Positions 6,091 through 13,482 of a stretch of 26,042 nt of DNA are shown piece by piece. The first letter of the stretch is position 1; each line of letters begins with the position of its first letter. Under the pieces are notes generated by a model. It searched no databases and was not told where the DNA came from. It saw only the letters and a list, made by a program, of their open reading frames with translations. Source of the stretch: a virus; IMG/VR virus record IMGVR_UViG_3300042549_003323, positions 1 to 26,042 of that record; one strand, given 5' to 3'. A program made the translations under genes and the position numbers.

Positions 6091-6408
6091 CTATAATATA
6101 TTTTCAATTATTTTCATTATTGCATCATAACTTTCTATTTCTGAATCAATTATATTACCATAAGTTATACCTTTAGATTTTTGTAAACAGATTGCAGATG
6201 TCTTTTGTTGGTTTAATTCGTCAATTCTAAACTTTTGTAATGGCTTTAAAGTATCCTTTATTTCCTTTGATTCTATAAATATTGATACTCCATTCTTAAT
6301 GCATATTAAATCGGTAATACCATTCTTATTTGTTTTGATTAGATTGATAACATACCATCCATTTTTCTCAAATGTGGTTTTAATTTTCGTTTGGAATGCA
6401 CTTGCCAT
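6091..6408 (-). CDS. VRR-NUC family nuclease
   Basis: This 105-residue small nuclease of the VRR-NUC branch of the PD-(D/E)XK superfamily has GITDLI with D33 and then FIESKE with E46 and K48, followed by the family's LKPLQKFRIDELNQ segment (Q58 region). VRR-NUC proteins in phages usually sit beside an SNF2-like helicase, as here: the helicase stop and this ATG share TAATG at 6408. The pair probably acts on branched or damaged DNA during replication. The length is typical for phage VRR-NUC proteins, and the catalytic residues are present. Confidence 0.85.
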   Translation of the reverse strand: MASAFQTKIKTTFEKNGWYVINLIKTNKNGITDLICIKNGVSIFIESKEIKDTLKPLQKFRIDELNQQKTSAICLQKSKGITYGNIIDSEIESYDAIMKIIENIL

Positions 6409-7631
6409 TATTTAAAATCTTTAGTGAAATATGATAATGTATAATTCTTTTTATTCATTACTGCCTTGTAAATTTTATCCTCAATACCACCTTTTGCAAA
6501 GAACCAGTAAATGTTATTTTCTAGTCTGTCAATAGTTGTTAATCTCTCCCGACTTTGCCAATATGATACAGCACTAAAGTCAATATTCATGTATATAAGC
6601 GAACTAGCACGACTAAGATTTACACCCTCACGACCTGATACAATTTGATAAGCTATTGATTTATCCGTTGTATTGAACTCGGATAGCTCTGTTGTTAGTG
6701 TATCCCCAAATATGAATTGTAAAGCGTCTAATTCAGCTTTAAATTTATAAAATATCGCAATTTGTCTACTCTTAAATATTGTATAAATACGTATTGCTTT
6801 TGAATAATCTAGTACAGCTGTATTTGATGACTCAAATTTGATAGTTCCTGAATACAATTGATGCATTTTAGACATTAATTTTACTGGCGTGTCACAAAGT
6901 ATCACTTCATTTTTACCCTCAACTACCAAGTCTTTCTTTAATCTATTAATTAACTTATATGTTGATTCTTTCATATCAACGTAAATAATATGTTCGTTTA
7001 CTTTAGAAGTAAAACCGCTTTCTTGTTGGGTAAATTTAATCATATAAGGTGCTATTACTGGTTCAATTAATTCTTTCTTTGCGTCTGAATAGTCTTTTAC
7101 TATTGCATAACCTAATTGTTTTTGCTTGACATTTACAAATACCATAGCCCATTTAAAGAAATTAGGATACTGATTAAATGGAGTGTATTTACTTACAAAG
7201 AATTGATGGTATAGTTGTGAATACGATTCAGGCGATGGAGTCCCACTTAAGAATATAAGCGGTAAATGTGAATATCGTTGTTTAAATTCTTTAGTTCCTT
7301 TACTTGGTTTACTATAAGAACCATACTTGTGATGCTCGTCACTTATAACAACGTCAAAAATTCCTGTAACCTTATGGATTGATTCAGTATTTATAACTTG
7401 TAAATCAAAAGAAAATGACATACTAGCGTAATCTGATTCAACTGAACTAATTGCTTTCTTCTTGGTAACAAATAGGACTGATTTAGCATTATACAATTCA
7501 CAAGTATTTAAAGCTATCAAAGTTTTTCCGCAGCGTGGTTCAATCGCTAAGTACACTATCTTCTTATCTCGTAATATCTCAACGGCTTTTTTAGATAGGT
7601 CAAGTTGATACGAACGTAATTCTTTTTTCAT
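6408..7631 (-). CDS. SF2 (SNF2-like) DNA helicase paired with VRR-NUC
   Basis: This 407-residue superfamily 2 ATPase has a Q-like motif in LRSYQLDL, Walker A PRCGKT (32-37, with Cys where most have Gly/Ala), Walker B DEHH (98-101), motif III SGTPSP (129-134), and motif VI in YWQSRERL (357-364) with the arginine finger position. The C-terminal RecA-like domain includes VSGREGVNLS. Phage members of this type are thought to remodel replication or recombination intermediates; no target is known. It overlaps the upstream gene by four bases (ATGA) and the VRR-NUC gene by one. Confidence 0.85.
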   Translation of the reverse strand: MKKELRSYQLDLSKKAVEILRDKKIVYLAIEPRCGKTLIALNTCELYNAKSVLFVTKKKAISSVESDYASMSFSFDLQVINTESIHKVTGIFDVVISDEHHKYGSYSKPSKGTKEFKQRYSHLPLIFLSGTPSPESYSQLYHQFFVSKYTPFNQYPNFFKWAMVFVNVKQKQLGYAIVKDYSDAKKELIEPVIAPYMIKFTQQESGFTSKVNEHIIYVDMKESTYKLINRLKKDLVVEGKNEVILCDTPVKLMSKMHQLYSGTIKFESSNTAVLDYSKAIRIYTIFKSRQIAIFYKFKAELDALQFIFGDTLTTELSEFNTTDKSIAYQIVSGREGVNLSRASSLIYMNIDFSAVSYWQSRERLTTIDRLENNIYWFFAKGGIEDKIYKAVMNKKNYTLSYFTKDFK

Positions 7632-8123: not shown

Positions 8124-8317
8124 TCTTTTGCTTCTATTTTAGTGTCGTACATAATTATATCTGCTCTAATTAAAGATAGTGCTATGATTGAATTTTCTAA
8201 ACTAGATATTAAATCTATTCTAGCAGCATGATTTTCTTGTAACCAATCAACAGAATCTTTATACTTATCCATTATGCTTTCGATTTTTTTAATTGCTATT
8301 ATACTATCTATCGTCAT
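8108..8317 (-). CDS. Small helical hypothetical protein
   Basis: This 69-residue protein begins MTIDSIIAIKKIESI. The frame extends to a TTG at 8344, but the ATG at 8317 overlaps the SF3 helicase stop in an ATGA junction and is the natural start. It is helical, with no recognised domain. Its partner context is the replication helicase upstream. Confidence 0.5.
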   Translation of the reverse strand: MTIDSIIAIKKIESIMDKYKDSVDWLQENHAARIDLISSLENSIIALSLIRADIIMYDTKIEAKEWMEN

Positions 8318-9750
8318 AATCCTTGCAGTTCGTTTGAATCCCAAATATCTTCTATTGGCTCGTTATTATAGCTTTTAGTAGCTTCAAACATAATCTTTGT
8401 AATACCTCCTGATGTTGTTGTATGGTATTTAATCCCGTAATGTTTAGCATACGACTTTAAACCAATAGTTAAGCTATTTTGTTTGTACCATTTCTTTAAC
8501 TCAGGGTACGAATTTAAGAAGTTATCGTAAATGGTCTTTACGTTTACCCACTCATTATTAGGAATAGATGGAATAAACGTATGTAGCTCACTACTTATTT
8601 TGTCAATTAATTTTCTAATCTCTAAATTCTTTGTATTACTACGGACCAATCCATTGTTCAAATATTTACGTAAACACTCCATCATGTAGTTATCAAACCT
8701 AGCCCATTCCTGTTTGTCCCAATCGTTAAATAATTTATTACCAAAAAACATTTCCGGCGTATAATCCGCATTGAAAAACGTAGACATTTCAACTTCGAAC
8801 TTCCTAGCTTCGTGACTTCCACCATCACCTTTAATAGTATAGTTAGTTGTTATTATAATTTTTGGGCTTTCCTCAACGCTTAATCTAATAGCATCTTTTC
8901 CTTTATATTCTATACAAATACCCTCCGTAATTACACTGAATAATGATTCAAAACTAAAGTTCCGTTCAACGTCATCAAAGACCAATATTTGGCAATCAGT
9001 AGATACATTTTGATAAGGGAATGATTTATTAAATGTAAATGTTTTACCATCCAATGATTGAACATTTTTAATTTGTTTTAAAGCGTTCCAAATTAATCCT
9101 TTACCACTTCGTCCATTTGGATTATCGCTTATCATTTCATCGTTAAATATAATAGCTCTATTGTTTGAATTGGTTTTATATGAATGAAGTAAGTAACCTA
9201 AAACAGATTGCAAAGTGTTATAACGTTCTACATCTTCACCGCTTACTTTCCAAACAAAAGTTCTAAATTGTGATTGGTGATGGTCCGCTTTAATAAAATC
9301 CCTATCTATAACTTGTTTCTTCCAAATAGAAATATTTACATCTTTGTAATCTATAATTTTACGTTCGTCTTTAGTTATGTTTACAATACAATTATTGTAA
9401 AAGAAATAGGCATTATCTTTGTCATCCTTCATTACTTGAATTTCTTTAGTTGAAATCATTGAAAGAAAATCACGTTTGAAATATTTTAGGTTACCACTCA
9501 TTAAATTGTAAACGCCTATACCTAAATCGTTATCTTCAACATAATTTAAAATAAAGTCTTTTAAATCGGTTTCATCTTTTATTTCTAAAAATATACCATT
9601 TTTTTTTATAATGTTAAACGTACTATTTGCGTTTGGTTTGTTTTTAAAGTAATCGTTTTTCTCTAAAAACTTTTTAAAAAGGTAATTATTAAGGTCAATT
9701 TTTCCATTCTGATTTACAGACCAGAACGGCATTAAATTATTATCATTCAT
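8314..9750 (-). CDS. Superfamily 3 replication helicase (D5/DUF5906-like)
   Basis: This 478-residue protein is probably the replicative helicase. The ATPase core shows Walker A NGRSGKG (212-218), Walker B ILVFDDVE (about 255-262) and the SF3 motif C strand KIIITTNY (297-304) with the sensor asparagine. The N-terminal 170 residues resemble the D5_N-type region (many aromatic/Lys-rich segments) and carry no visible primase motif. The C-terminal 100 residues probably form a winged-helix (VKTIYDNFL ... TIGLKSYAKHYGIKY). It is the first gene after a TATATTTG promoter with a roughly 100-base leader. A primase, if any, must lie elsewhere. Confidence 0.8.
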   Translation of the reverse strand: MNDNNLMPFWSVNQNGKIDLNNYLFKKFLEKNDYFKNKPNANSTFNIIKKNGIFLEIKDETDLKDFILNYVEDNDLGIGVYNLMSGNLKYFKRDFLSMISTKEIQVMKDDKDNAYFFYNNCIVNITKDERKIIDYKDVNISIWKKQVIDRDFIKADHHQSQFRTFVWKVSGEDVERYNTLQSVLGYLLHSYKTNSNNRAIIFNDEMISDNPNGRSGKGLIWNALKQIKNVQSLDGKTFTFNKSFPYQNVSTDCQILVFDDVERNFSFESLFSVITEGICIEYKGKDAIRLSVEESPKIIITTNYTIKGDGGSHEARKFEVEMSTFFNADYTPEMFFGNKLFNDWDKQEWARFDNYMMECLRKYLNNGLVRSNTKNLEIRKLIDKISSELHTFIPSIPNNEWVNVKTIYDNFLNSYPELKKWYKQNSLTIGLKSYAKHYGIKYHTTTSGGITKIMFEATKSYNNEPIEDIWDSNELQGL

Positions 9751-9785
9751 GGAATATTTATTTAAAATAAGTGCCGTAAGTAGGT

Positions 9786-9843
9786 GCGTGGAATAACCTA
9801 CAAACGGACTTATTTTGATTAAAATTTTTCGGAGTTTCCACGC
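9786..9843 (-). promoter_or_regulatory. Inverted repeat in the SF3 helicase 5' leader
   Basis: A perfect 8-bp inverted repeat (GCGTGGAA 9786-9793, TTCCACGC 9836-9843) encloses 42 bases. It lies between the -7 box at 9853-9860 and the helicase ATG at 9750. If transcription starts about 7 bases after the -7 box, the RNA would begin almost at the first arm. This may be a leader structure; no T-run follows, so it is not a terminator. Confidence 0.45.
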
Positions 9844-9852
9844 TTCGAGTTA

Positions 9853-9860
9853 CAAATATA
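9853..9860 (-). promoter_or_regulatory. Bacteroidota -7 box before the SF3 helicase
   Basis: TATATTTG on the minus strand matches TAnnTTTG. It lies directly after the methyltransferase stop (9861) and about 100 bases before the helicase ATG. No clear -33 TTG is seen at the expected spacing, because that position falls within the methyltransferase 3' end. Confidence 0.5.
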
Positions 9861-10876: not shown

Positions 10877-12244
10877 TTATAAAAATTTAGGTTTAATTAA
10901 TTCTTTGTTAAATTCTTTTGTTATGTGTTCAAATGAACGATTTACATTTTCAGTTAGGTTTTTATGTAACTGGATTGCTTTTTGTGTTTTTTGTTGTAAT
11001 GCTTCTAATACCCTTGTTTGACCATCGGATATAACCATATCAATAGTTACATCTTTTGTTTGTCCAAACCTCCAAAAACGTCTTATTGCTTGGTAATATT
11101 GTTCGTAAGACCATGTAGGGAAAAATACAGAATGATTACAGTGTTGCCAATTTAAACCCATCGATGTCATTTTGGCTTTTGTAATTAATCTTTTAATTTC
11201 ACCATTTGCAAACGCTAATAGTATTTCTTCTTTTTTATCTATAGATTGACTACCTATTATTTCTACAGCGTCTTTATCCATTGATTTAAGAATAGAACTT
11301 TCATTATTTGTATTACACCAATACACGGAAGTTTTACCGCTTGCTAATTCTATAGCTTTTTCGCATCTACTTTGTTCTGTTTGCTTTTGTTCGTGTCTAA
11401 TTTCATTAAAGTTTTTAGCTACTATATTAAACATTTGTAATTGACCATCTATAGATATTTGATTAGTATTTTCTACTATATGTTTATTAATAATCAATTC
11501 AGGTAAATTATAACAGTCATTTGAAAAACCTAAATCGCTAGGCATCTTTGCCATAATTGACCATTGATTAACCCATGCGAAAAAATCCTTTTCCGCGTGT
11601 GGTTTTAAATAAAACTTTTCACCTATATTACGATTAGTTGAGTCTACAGCATTGTTATTTTGTTTAAAAAACTTCCCTAACATATCCATATATCCCATAT
11701 ATCCCAGAGCTTCTGATGAGGTTCCAAGTTCTATAAAATCATTTGGACTAGGTGTAGCTGTACTTAAAAATCTATATGGTATTTTTTTAACAAATGTTGT
11801 AACTTCTTGTTTTATTTTACCATCAAAATTTTTTAATATAGAACTTTCATCTAATATTACGCCCTCAAACTCATTACTATTAAAGTAGTGCAATCTCTCG
11901 TAATTACATACAACTATTTTCTTTTTATGCTTGCCGTCTTTTGAATATTCAATATCATCTATACCTAGTTTATTAGCTTCTAAAATGAACTGAAAAGCAA
12001 CCGCTAAAGGTGTTAATATTAATACTTTTTTATTAGTATGATTTACTATGTTTTGAGCTAGTGATAATTGTACTAATGTTTTTCCTAAACCAGTATCTAA
12101 AAAAACCGCTGAACGTCCTTTTAAAATAGCTTTCTCAATAACATGCTTTTGAAAATCAAATGCTATATCTGGAATGTAATTAGCTTTAAATCCAAAGTTA
12201 CCTATTGAATGCTTTTTGTTTTCTATAAATTCTTTATAATCCAT
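10877..12244 (-). CDS. SF2 (SNF2/DEAD-like) helicase adjacent to methyltransferase
   Basis: This 455-residue helicase shows an FQKHV-type Q region at 31-35, Walker A TGLGKT (51-56), motif Ia LTPLAV (78-83), Walker B LDESS (131-135), motif III STATPSP (161-167), and motif VI QAIRRFWRFGQ (385-395), all intact. The C-terminal RecA domain includes TKAKMTSMGLNWQ (motif V). Between the two ATPase halves is an insertion with an aromatic FFAWVNQW segment. Such helicases regularly precede a DNA methylase in phage genomes; the pairing may help the methylase act on phage DNA or process forks. It overlaps the upstream NUMOD4-like gene by one base (TAATG). Confidence 0.88.
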   Translation of the reverse strand: MDYKEFIENKKHSIGNFGFKANYIPDIAFDFQKHVIEKAILKGRSAVFLDTGLGKTLVQLSLAQNIVNHTNKKVLILTPLAVAFQFILEANKLGIDDIEYSKDGKHKKKIVVCNYERLHYFNSNEFEGVILDESSILKNFDGKIKQEVTTFVKKIPYRFLSTATPSPNDFIELGTSSEALGYMGYMDMLGKFFKQNNNAVDSTNRNIGEKFYLKPHAEKDFFAWVNQWSIMAKMPSDLGFSNDCYNLPELIINKHIVENTNQISIDGQLQMFNIVAKNFNEIRHEQKQTEQSRCEKAIELASGKTSVYWCNTNNESSILKSMDKDAVEIIGSQSIDKKEEILLAFANGEIKRLITKAKMTSMGLNWQHCNHSVFFPTWSYEQYYQAIRRFWRFGQTKDVTIDMVISDGQTRVLEALQQKTQKAIQLHKNLTENVNRSFEHITKEFNKELIKPKFL

Positions 12245-12516
12245 TATACTATTATTAAATTATTTACGTGATTGTTAAATATATCTTTATCAATTCTGTA
12301 TACTCGTTTAAATGATTCCGATATAAATTTACGTGCTACTTCGGATGCCAAAAATACATCTTTTTTTCTACTATTGTTCTCTAGTGTCAAAGTTACTTTT
12401 GTTTTATATTGATTGCATTTGATAGGCTTTAAGTTACGATTAGTGTTTATATTCTTAACATTACCAAAGTTACTAATGTAATAATGTTCTTCTAGGTGTT
12501 TCCACTCTTCTACCAT
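12244..12516 (-). CDS. Degenerate NUMOD4/HNH protein without catalytic histidines
   Basis: This 90-residue protein starts like a NUMOD4 domain (EEWKHLEEHYYISNFGNVKN) and continues with a beta segment, then VYRIDKDIFNNHVNNLIIV. That tail aligns by eye with the HNH_3 core (VDHIDGNxxNNxxxNL), but the DH pair is replaced by YR, so the nuclease is probably inactive, and it stops right after the core. It may be a decayed homing endonuclease or one kept as a DNA-binding protein. The frame has no internal stops. It overlaps the lipoprotein gene by seven bases and the helicase by one, so it is embedded in the operon. Confidence 0.7.
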   Translation of the reverse strand: MVEEWKHLEEHYYISNFGNVKNINTNRNLKPIKCNQYKTKVTLTLENNSRKKDVFLASEVARKFISESFKRVYRIDKDIFNNHVNNLIIV

Positions 12517-12734
12517 TCTTGCTCATTAAACATACAATAATCATTTCCAGGATGTGCATTAATCCAATCACCAGGATATAAATAAAATTTCTTTAAATTA
12601 CCTGTGTTAGAATTTCTAATAACAATAGAATGATCCTTTACATTATCATCTACAATTAATCCACAAGATGATGGTTCTTTCTGACAGCTAAACAATCCAA
12701 TTGCTAATGCTGATACTAATACTAATTTTTTCAT
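12510..12734 (-). CDS. Small lipoprotein
   Basis: This 74-residue protein begins MKKLVLVSALAIGLFSCQ, a textbook lipoprotein signal with lipobox LFSC and the lipidated Cys at residue 17. The mature part is about 57 residues with two further cysteines (C23 and C67 region, CGLIV and DYCMF) and an acidic/aromatic C-terminus. The frame is open upstream to an ATG at 12764, but that codon lies inside the terminator stem and would spoil the signal peptide, so 12734 is chosen. Small phage lipoproteins often block superinfection at the receptor; that role is inferred from size and location only. The terminator T-run ends 16 bases before this ATG, with no promoter between. Confidence 0.75.
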   Translation of the reverse strand: MKKLVLVSALAIGLFSCQKEPSSCGLIVDDNVKDHSIVIRNSNTGNLKKFYLYPGDWINAHPGNDYCMFNEQEW

Positions 12735-12750
12735 AATAATTGGTTTAAAT

Positions 12751-12802
12751 AAAAAAAGCCCCATCGAAGTGTAAAGGTCTCAAGTTTACAAATCGATAGG
12801 GC
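12751..12802 (-). terminator. Intrinsic terminator directly before the lipoprotein gene
   Basis: On the minus strand a 9-bp stem (12794-12802 with 12758-12766, one G-U pair), a 3/3 internal loop, and a 6-bp inner stem (12785-12790 with 12770-12775) end in seven T (12757-12751). The apical loop 12776-12784 contains an 8-base sequence complementary to the loop of the upstream hairpin. Confidence 0.8.
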
Positions 12803-12811
12803 AAATATCTT

Positions 12812-12841
12812 AAGTGTTACAATGTTTGAGACCTAACACTT
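12812..12841 (-). ncRNA. Upstream hairpin with loop complementary to the terminator loop (attenuator-like leader)
   Basis: A perfect 8-bp stem (AAGTGTTA/TAACACTT; 12812-12819 with 12834-12841) encloses a 14-base loop. Loop bases 12826-12833 (TTGAGACC) are the exact complement of 12776-12783 (GGTCTCAA) in the terminator loop, and the pairing can be extended on one side to about 14 bp through AAGTGT. The two hairpins could thus kiss, or the long pairing could replace the terminator. The ncRNA label is inference from structure. Confidence 0.45.
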
Positions 12842-12941
12842 TGCTAAATTACTACATTATTTTATATCTGCAATAATTTTATTAAAAATTATTGTTATTT
12901 ATATTGATTCTAAATAAAATGTTGAATTTTGCGAAAAACGT

Positions 12942-13024
12942 AAAAAGGTTAAAAGTTTGCTTGAAAATGTAGAAACTTTGATGTTTTGTAAGTTCTTAAA
13001 TATCAATAATTTAAAGGAAACTTG
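12942..13024 (+). repeat. Left arm of large imperfect inverted repeat
   Basis: Three blocks recur inverted in the right arm in mirror order: AAAGGTTAAAA with flanks (12943-12959), ATGTTTTGTAA (12981-12991) and ATAATTTAAAGGAAACTTG (13006-13024). The last block matches the right arm except for one inserted base. Confidence 0.6.
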
Positions 13025-13182
13025 TTTTTGATTAGTTTGTTGATTTATAGTAGTTTACGTATAAAGTTAAAACTTTTTTCACTTTTTTTTTTATTTATTG
13101 TTTTAGTGTAATATAGCAAAACACTTTCTACATTTCATTACTTTCTATGAGTATCAATAAGTTAAGCTATTTTCAAGTTTTT

Positions 13183-13257
13183 CAAGTTTCCTTTAAAATT
13201 ATATAAATCAATACGTTACAAAACACCTAAATTTTATACAAGTTTTAACCTTTTCTA
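13183..13257 (-). repeat. Right arm of large imperfect inverted repeat
   Basis: The reverse complement carries the left-arm blocks: 13183-13202 (CAAGTTTCCTTTAAAATTAT), 13216-13227 (TTACAAAACACC) and 13239-13257 (AAGTTTTAACC core). Spacing between blocks differs by 1 and by about 9-10 bases from the left arm. A 9-base tandem TTTTCAAGT (two copies, 13170-13187) overlaps the arm's inner end. Confidence 0.6.
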
Positions 13258-13263
13258 CTTTTT

Positions 13264-13482
13264 CTATTCCATCAACAATCCATTATCGTGCATTATTTCT
13301 CTAATTTTAGCACGAACAAGTTCTGCCATTTCAATTTCGCTACCTATTTCAGAGTATTTATATAGCCCTCGATAGTATTGGTCTAGTTCGTCAATTACAA
13401 ACGCGTATTTCCATCCGTATAGTGCGTACTTAATATCGTCTTGATCTTCTAGTGAGTCGAATTCTAGTGTTACTTTTGCCAT
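13264..13482 (-). CDS. Conserved small phage protein
   Basis: This 72-residue protein has an acidic, beta-like start (KVTLEFDSLEDQDDIKYAL) and a helical remainder (YAFVIDELDQYYRGLYKY, then LVRAKIREIMHDNGL). This FDSxEDxDD...AL pattern followed by a LDxYxR...KY helix is a common type of phage early protein of unknown function. It lies 34 bases after the metallophosphoesterase and is the last gene before the gene-free region. Confidence 0.65.
   Translation of the reverse strand: MAKVTLEFDSLEDQDDIKYALYGWKYAFVIDELDQYYRGLYKYSEIGSEIEMAELVRAKIREIMHDNGLLME

Follow-up and report, generated by a model that had tools for sequence, protein, structure and literature searches.

Judged from its sequence, the element at 12751–12841 on the minus strand of the window is one copy of a promoter-proximal leader family in Bacteroidota phages, and we favour, with moderate confidence, the reading that it combines a phage promoter with a cis-acting transcription attenuator in which two hairpin loops make a kissing contact. 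The window is the whole 26,042-nt stretch of DNA analysed here, a 26-kb phage fragment taken from a virus record, whose minus strand carries nearly all of its genes. Members of the family share a host-type −7 box, a 5′-terminal hairpin, a linker, a terminator with a complementary apical loop, and an ATG that in most cases lies 7–30 nt further on (Table 1).

Architecture of the leader and covariation of its helices

The original prediction of a hairpin followed by a terminator on the minus strand (12841–12812 and 12802–12751) was borne out, as was the exact complementarity between the loop at 12826–12833 and that at 12776–12783. In the window copy, the match between loops I and II amounts to 9 nt when one flanking pair is counted. 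The further claim, that the match extends through AAGTGT, stood in the window, where the flanks AAGTGT/ACACTT pair with a one-base offset and where, as in near-identical relatives, the complementarity reaches past the loops to ~14 bp in total; it did not stand for other members of the family, from which this extension is missing and in which only the 7–9 nt loop match is conserved.

The 111-nt RNA of the window element gave a folding z of −5.1. Such an arrangement appeared in 0 of 120 dinucleotide-shuffled strands of the window, and a search of the window itself returned exactly one such place on the minus strand (at 12840) and none on the plus strand. The lipoprotein ATG lies at 12734, 16 nt past the T tract. 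The sole ATG in the window leader falls in the 3′ terminator arm and shares the reading frame of the lipoprotein, and a conserved leader ORF was absent from the alignments.

Table 1 Features of the leader, its downstream genes and the second copy in the window.
Feature	Position	Strand	Remarks
TTG, candidate −33 element	12871..12873	-	19 nt 5′ of −7 box; sequence
−7 promoter box TAATTTAG	12844..12851	-	Motif match and position, immediately 5′ of hairpin I
Hairpin I, 5′-terminal	12812..12841	-	Perfect 8-bp stem AAGTGTTA/TAACACTT, 14-nt loop
Loop I GGTCTCAA	12833-12826	-	Exact complement of loop II TTGAGACC
Loop I word AGGTCTCAA	12826..12834	-	Covaries with loop II
Linker, 9 nt	12803..12811	-	Family median 15
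Hairpin II, terminator hairpin	12758..12802	-	10-bp outer stem, small internal loop, 6-bp inner stem, 9-nt apical loop
Loop II TTGAGACC	12783-12776	-	Complementary to loop I GGTCTCAA
Loop II word TTGAGACCT	12775..12783	-	Complement of loop I word
U tract of intrinsic terminator, T7	12751..12757	-	Sequence
Downstream gene 1, 74-aa predicted lipoprotein (MKKLVLVSALAIGLFSC...)	12510..12734	-	Close homologues behind leader in relatives
Downstream gene 2, NUMOD4/HNH-type endonuclease fragment, 90 aa	12244..12516	-	
Downstream gene 3, SNF2-like DNA helicase	10877..12244	-	Directly behind leader in many relatives
Second copy, −7 box TATATTTG	9853..9860	-	Directly 3′ of methyltransferase stop codon
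Second copy, hairpin I, loop word GCGTGGAA (9843-9836)	9829..9848	-	Same type as L055, L034, L035
Second copy, terminator hairpin, loop word TTCCACGC (9793-9786)	9769..9811	-	
Primase/VirE-like gene behind second copy	8314..9750	-	Weak DNA primase match; T tract to ATG 17 nt

Such elements are numerous in loci related to the exonuclease and helicase genes, and covariation was assessed on aligned members of the family. In a 19-sequence alignment, the paired fraction of the loop-pair cells was 98%; shuffling lowered it to 71%, and sliding the partner to 46% or less. The loop pair carried 33 two-sided changes vs 8 in shuffles; its covariation (0.643 vs 0.145) was reached in 0 of 500 shuffles. Co-variation of the loops in relatives, named beforehand as the refutation test of the original prediction, was thus found, and complementarity kept in this way is consistent with loops able to kiss. 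Among 26 members sharing one loop word, the four-helix structure was 91% paired with 107 two-sided changes (0 of 500 shuffles): the stem of hairpin I (helix 1) showed two-sided changes at five of five pairs, and the outer and inner terminator stems (helices 3 and 4) covaried as well.

Homologues were also gathered with the loop words masked, and most of them retained complementarity. Of the 30 distinct changed loop pairs obtained, 12 were perfectly complementary and 6 had one mismatch, and several of the remaining 12 were register or unrelated matches. Furthermore, a covariance model without loop pairing picked up a locus (L246) whose loops pair over 10 nt. These alignments show hairpin I, hairpin II and the loop–loop pairing to be covarying RNA helices, and covarying complementarity of two hairpin loops is one of the marks of kissing-loop RNAs. 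Within and outside the words, substitution rates were similar (1.0–1.6-fold), except in one identity bin, where loop II reached 2.1-fold. As the words evolve at roughly the pace of the remaining element, strong positive selection acting on them was rejected.

Family size, promoter and genomic context

A descriptor comprising box, hairpin I, reverse-complementary loop word and terminator, scanned over 1.45 Mb, returned 72 distinct matches; the same 1.45 Mb returned 6 with reversed words, 10 with complement-only words and 15 with identical words. In IMG/VR, the pattern TATATTTG-N8-20-GGTCTCA-N38-68-TGAGACC matched 115 stretches and its control with the second word reversed, and so non-complementary, matched 0, while a version with the strands swapped between the loops (GTGAGAC...GTCTCAC) matched 40. 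The arbitrary word GCATGAC gave 0 IMG/VR matches; fully random loop words are disfavoured by this result, because of which the loop-word repertoire is probably biased. In total, ~150 distinct leaders with 59 loop words were collected, and the commonest word, GGTCTCAC, occurred in 60 of the 150, many of those loci having been fetched with that word.

The named isolates examined carry two to three leader copies per phage: three in the complete isolate hattifnatt9-1 (at 9365, 13306 and 14341), two each in hemulen6-1 and snork6-1, and copies at 35872 and 40361 in FCV-1, an unrelated F. columnare phage. Leaders occur in virulent phages too; the records of Elizabethkingia, Polaribacter and Bacteroides phages yielded none. 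Among 150 Flavobacteriaceae genomes, 2 matched, one in a short phage-like contig and the other at an ordinary terminator; chromosomal use by hosts was rejected, neither match being a chromosomal leader. The assignment of the leader as phage-specific is provisional because the covariance model (R1) is largely confined to one subtype and failed to find others, and because the 150-genome scan used stricter filters. A leader-like element with the AGCGTAAC word pair and a larger terminator was observed at 6604 in a Bacteroidales MAG contig (L245), which suggests a range beyond flavobacterial phages.

The Flavobacterium −7 consensus TAnnTTTG spans −12 to −5 (PMC9723704). Since the box TAATTTAG lies at 12851–12844 with a TTG 19 nt upstream, the transcription start is predicted, from this promoter motif, at ~12839, the foot of hairpin I. 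In relatives, TATATTTG occupies the same −7 position; across 79 related elements, a median of 5 nt separates the box from the hairpin, and 91% of the boxes start with TAT. With an RNA that begins with hairpin I, the 400-nt structured region upstream would lie outside the leader RNA. The 500-nt intergenic fold was accordingly rejected as part of the leader RNA, the promoter sitting at hairpin I, and the stretch first proposed for folding (12735–13263) was too wide in scope. The gap between U tract and ATG leaves no room for a second promoter, in agreement with the expectation that the terminator stands 16 bases before the lipoprotein ATG with no promoter between.

The intergenic DNA itself (12870–13263) contains long imperfect inverted repeats with 52-nt arms that are 73% complementary, and the 12740–13270 stretch gave a folding z of −5.8. 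DNA related to 12870–13263 lies directly 5′ of the leader in two further loci (L065 and L081). This inverted-repeat region is possibly a replication origin.

The distance from U tract to ATG was 7–31 nt in 56 of 57 GGTCTCA leaders with a nearby ORF start (48 nt in the other one), and mostly 9–50 nt in a 36-contig survey. Behind the ~150 distinct leaders stand 61 unrelated downstream gene families, many of them in replication or homing; they include SNF2-like helicase, NUMOD4/HNH and GIY-YIG endonucleases, replication initiation and primosomal proteins, DUF3987 primases, DUF6291, lipoproteins, and small proteins without an assigned family. Leaders that are 93–99% identical precede unrelated genes, as in L059, where a different protein follows a 99% identical leader; the originally supposed link to a lipoprotein–helicase–methyltransferase block was therefore given up. 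Because near-identical leaders precede unrelated genes across these 61 families, the leader is a transferable control module rather than a sensor dedicated to a single product.

In three loci (L059, 930–1464; L003, 3116–3651; L008, 6366–6890), another protein replaces the window lipoprotein behind a near-identical leader, which by sequence comparison is gene swapping at the leader boundary. In L120, a DUF805b RNA (RF02914, 49.5 bits) occupies 1379–1411, between the kissing-loop terminator and the next ATG, placing two cis-regulatory RNAs in tandem.

The 74-aa lipoprotein of the window recurs behind the leader in L172, with one residue different, and as a more distant homologue in L181. The NUMOD4-type piece that follows it (12244–12516) is without a recognisable HNH catalytic domain in Pfam and may be a decayed homing endonuclease. 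Two separate helicase genes, both phrog_62, were observed in the window (6408–7631 and 10877–12244). The window also contains a second leader copy (9860–9769, minus strand) with different loop words and an interrupted T run (ACTTATTTTAA); it lies 5′ of the primase/VirE-like gene, which it is inferred to control. A terminator 5′ of the exonuclease (14723–14696) was ruled out as a third copy, being without a partner loop.

Proposed attenuation by loop–loop contact and competing explanations

The element has the general layout of a leader attenuator, with a promoter and then a hairpin and U tract before a start codon. In the mechanism we propose, transcription from the host-type promoter would start at hairpin I, most transcripts would stop at ~90 nt, at the U tract after hairpin II, and the downstream replication, homing or accessory genes would be made only on readthrough by RNA polymerase. 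The conserved role of the two loops would be pairing (kissing), either in cis within one nascent transcript or from one RNA molecule to another of the same kind; this pairing would be needed whatever the word, with the strands exchangeable between the loops. Kissing would either favour or hinder termination, and the level of readthrough would be set by a factor acting on the loop contact, for which a PUR-fold-like protein is one candidate.

A rough estimate, based on assumed rises per nucleotide and per base pair, puts the median span of a straight coaxial cis kiss at ~8 nm and the reach of the median 15-nt linker at ~9 nm; on this model a cis contact appears feasible for most elements. The linker was too short without bending in 25 of 73 elements, including the window copy, where the 9-nt linker has to cover a straight span of ~9 nm with both hairpins complete and bending would be required. 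Because the linker of the window copy is too short without bending, the loop contact may be transient or may form between molecules.

Proteins of 56–80 aa belonging to one family, of which gp44 of hattifnatt9-1 is an example, are often encoded by the first gene behind the leader. The AlphaFold model of this small protein comprises four strands and one helix (pLDDT 86.6), and its best PDB matches were PUR-alpha repeats (probability 1.00, TMq 0.76) with non-significant E-values of 0.14 and above; the modelled resemblance to a PUR fold is no more than suggestive. An HMM, for which genes following leaders had served as input, matched 46 of 7479 small ORFs, a set partly fetched by leader, and 37 of the 46 lay directly behind a leader. 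Contigs and genomes analysed in full contained 7 matches among 2034 small ORFs, all 7 directly behind a leader. The PUR-fold-like protein found directly behind the leader in some phages is a candidate regulator; most leader-bearing phages, the window fragment included, were without a detectable member, and it is for this reason not a general one. We also raise, as a tentative and rather doubtful extension, a phage-specific class of RNA switch that would sense through the loop contact of a leader terminating its own transcription. Matching leader RNAs in the same cell would read this contact, so that a sense RNA controls replication genes according to copy number or superinfection, or else the reader would be a PUR-fold protein, encoded immediately behind the leader, that recognises the kissing helix whatever its sequence.

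Loop words were not enriched elsewhere in their own phage genome (31 occurrences vs 28.5 expected), and of 43 elements one had the promoter motif TANNTTTG on its antisense strand; both results speak against a separate antisense partner encoded by the phage. Copies within one phage carry different, non-cross-complementary words (12 genomes), which is compatible with homotypic control in trans. Here terminated leaders would build up and bind nascent copies of the same leader, loop I pairing with loop II; as phage copy number increases, replication-gene expression would fall (or rise), and the effect would extend to a co-infecting phage whose loops are the same, in a sense-RNA analogue of plasmid copy-number control. 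We consider this unlikely. The mutually different words, the absence of enrichment elsewhere, the presence of both partners in the same RNA and the position of many leaders 5′ of replication genes speak for it, but leaders also precede homing endonucleases and lipoproteins, the loop words evolve at no more than roughly the pace of the remaining element, and the dominance of GGTCTCA/TGAGACC across phages, in part a result of fetching by that word, fits poorly with strong selection for orthogonal words.

A start at hairpin I and a terminator at ~90 nt is also the anatomy of bacterial small-RNA genes, and the element could encode a stable, trans-acting ~90-nt RNA whose target is an RNA or protein of the host or the phage, with the downstream gene fed by upstream or residual readthrough. 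The nearly constant distance from U tract to ATG and the 61 different downstream gene families argue against such a gene, and the 59 loop words, together with the swapped strands, against a fixed target, which makes this explanation improbable. The mechanism first put forward, refolding of the two hairpins into one long helix that destroys the terminator, can draw on the ~14-bp complementarity with its one offset in the window and near-identical relatives, but is very hard to sustain, since the long helix is 10 kcal/mol less stable than the two hairpins (−19.4 vs −29.4 kcal/mol), its AAGTGT/ACACTT extension is not conserved, and the outer terminator stem lies untouched outside the complementary stretch. 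Finally, the word pair forms an inverted repeat, with strand-swapped versions, as would inverted operator half-sites of a DNA-binding protein falling in hairpin loops by chance, but this DNA-level reading is highly unlikely given that hairpin I and both terminator stems covary independently of the words and that the order promoter–loop I–loop II–U tract is fixed on the sense strand.

Significance and relation to known systems

The attenuator with a loop–loop contact that we favour would be a widespread uncatalogued regulatory RNA of Bacteroidota phages, often heading replication and homing genes, and would provide initial access to the timing of gene expression in those flavobacterial phages that use the host promoter motif. 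Cultured pairs carry such leaders, hattifnatt9-1 on Flavobacterium sp. LMO9 and FCV-1 on F. columnare, and naturally occurring kissing-loop terminators that differ from one another would also lend themselves as parts to RNA engineering.

Rfam 15 at the gathering score gave no match in the window, L167 or L170 and none on a leader among 15 further loci; at a relaxed E-value, the only matches were weak and terminator-like, NsiR1 and Spot 42 among them, and scored far below the gathering threshold. The initial view of an attenuator-like leader of no recognised class agrees with this outcome. A blastn search of the 1.2-kb region against named phages returned no match, and no described phage kissing-loop terminator was found in the literature covered (open-access papers and few subscription papers, no preprints); the text of the Baltic phage paper does not contain the words terminator, promoter, intergenic or RNA (PMC7077304).

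The antisense attenuators of pT181 and pIP501 resemble the phage element in having a leader RNA, a loop–loop first contact and an intrinsic terminator that decides the expression of a replication gene. Their partner, however, is a countertranscript from the opposite strand, whereas here both loops belong to one RNA, and the countertranscript that defines plasmid antisense attenuators was not found, with the antisense promoter motif as rare as described above. ColE1 RNAI/RNAII likewise has two fully complementary hairpin loops in which structure outweighs sequence, but these are two opposite-strand RNAs acting on a primer, rather than one leader RNA with a terminator. In the repZ leader pseudoknot of IncI-alpha/IncB plasmids, complementary loops lie within one leader RNA, as in the phage leader; that pseudoknot acts on translation and is countered by the antisense Inc RNA. 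In the phage leader, unlike repZ, one of the loops belongs to an intrinsic terminator.

Among phage systems, the P4 CI RNA and P1/P7 c4 (Rfam C4) are also leader transcripts with internal complementary segments and premature termination; the present leader differs in matching no Rfam family, in its compact loop–loop pair combined with an intrinsic terminator, and in its presence in virulent phages as well. HK022 put RNA and the lambda 6S/Q late leader are promoter-proximal phage leaders with hairpins controlling readthrough, as here; put acts on RNA polymerase without a terminator of its own, and Q acts through DNA. Neither is known to have paired loops, unlike the phage leader described here. 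The short leader ORF of trp-like leader-peptide attenuators has no counterpart in this family. Lysine, purine and cobalamin riboswitches share with it an intramolecular loop–loop contact in a leader with a terminator, but the phage leader has no conserved ligand-binding core, and its loop sequences vary widely while only the pairing is kept. Set against these systems, the family appears to be an uncatalogued leader attenuator, distinguished by a covarying loop–loop contact that reaches into the loop of the terminator.
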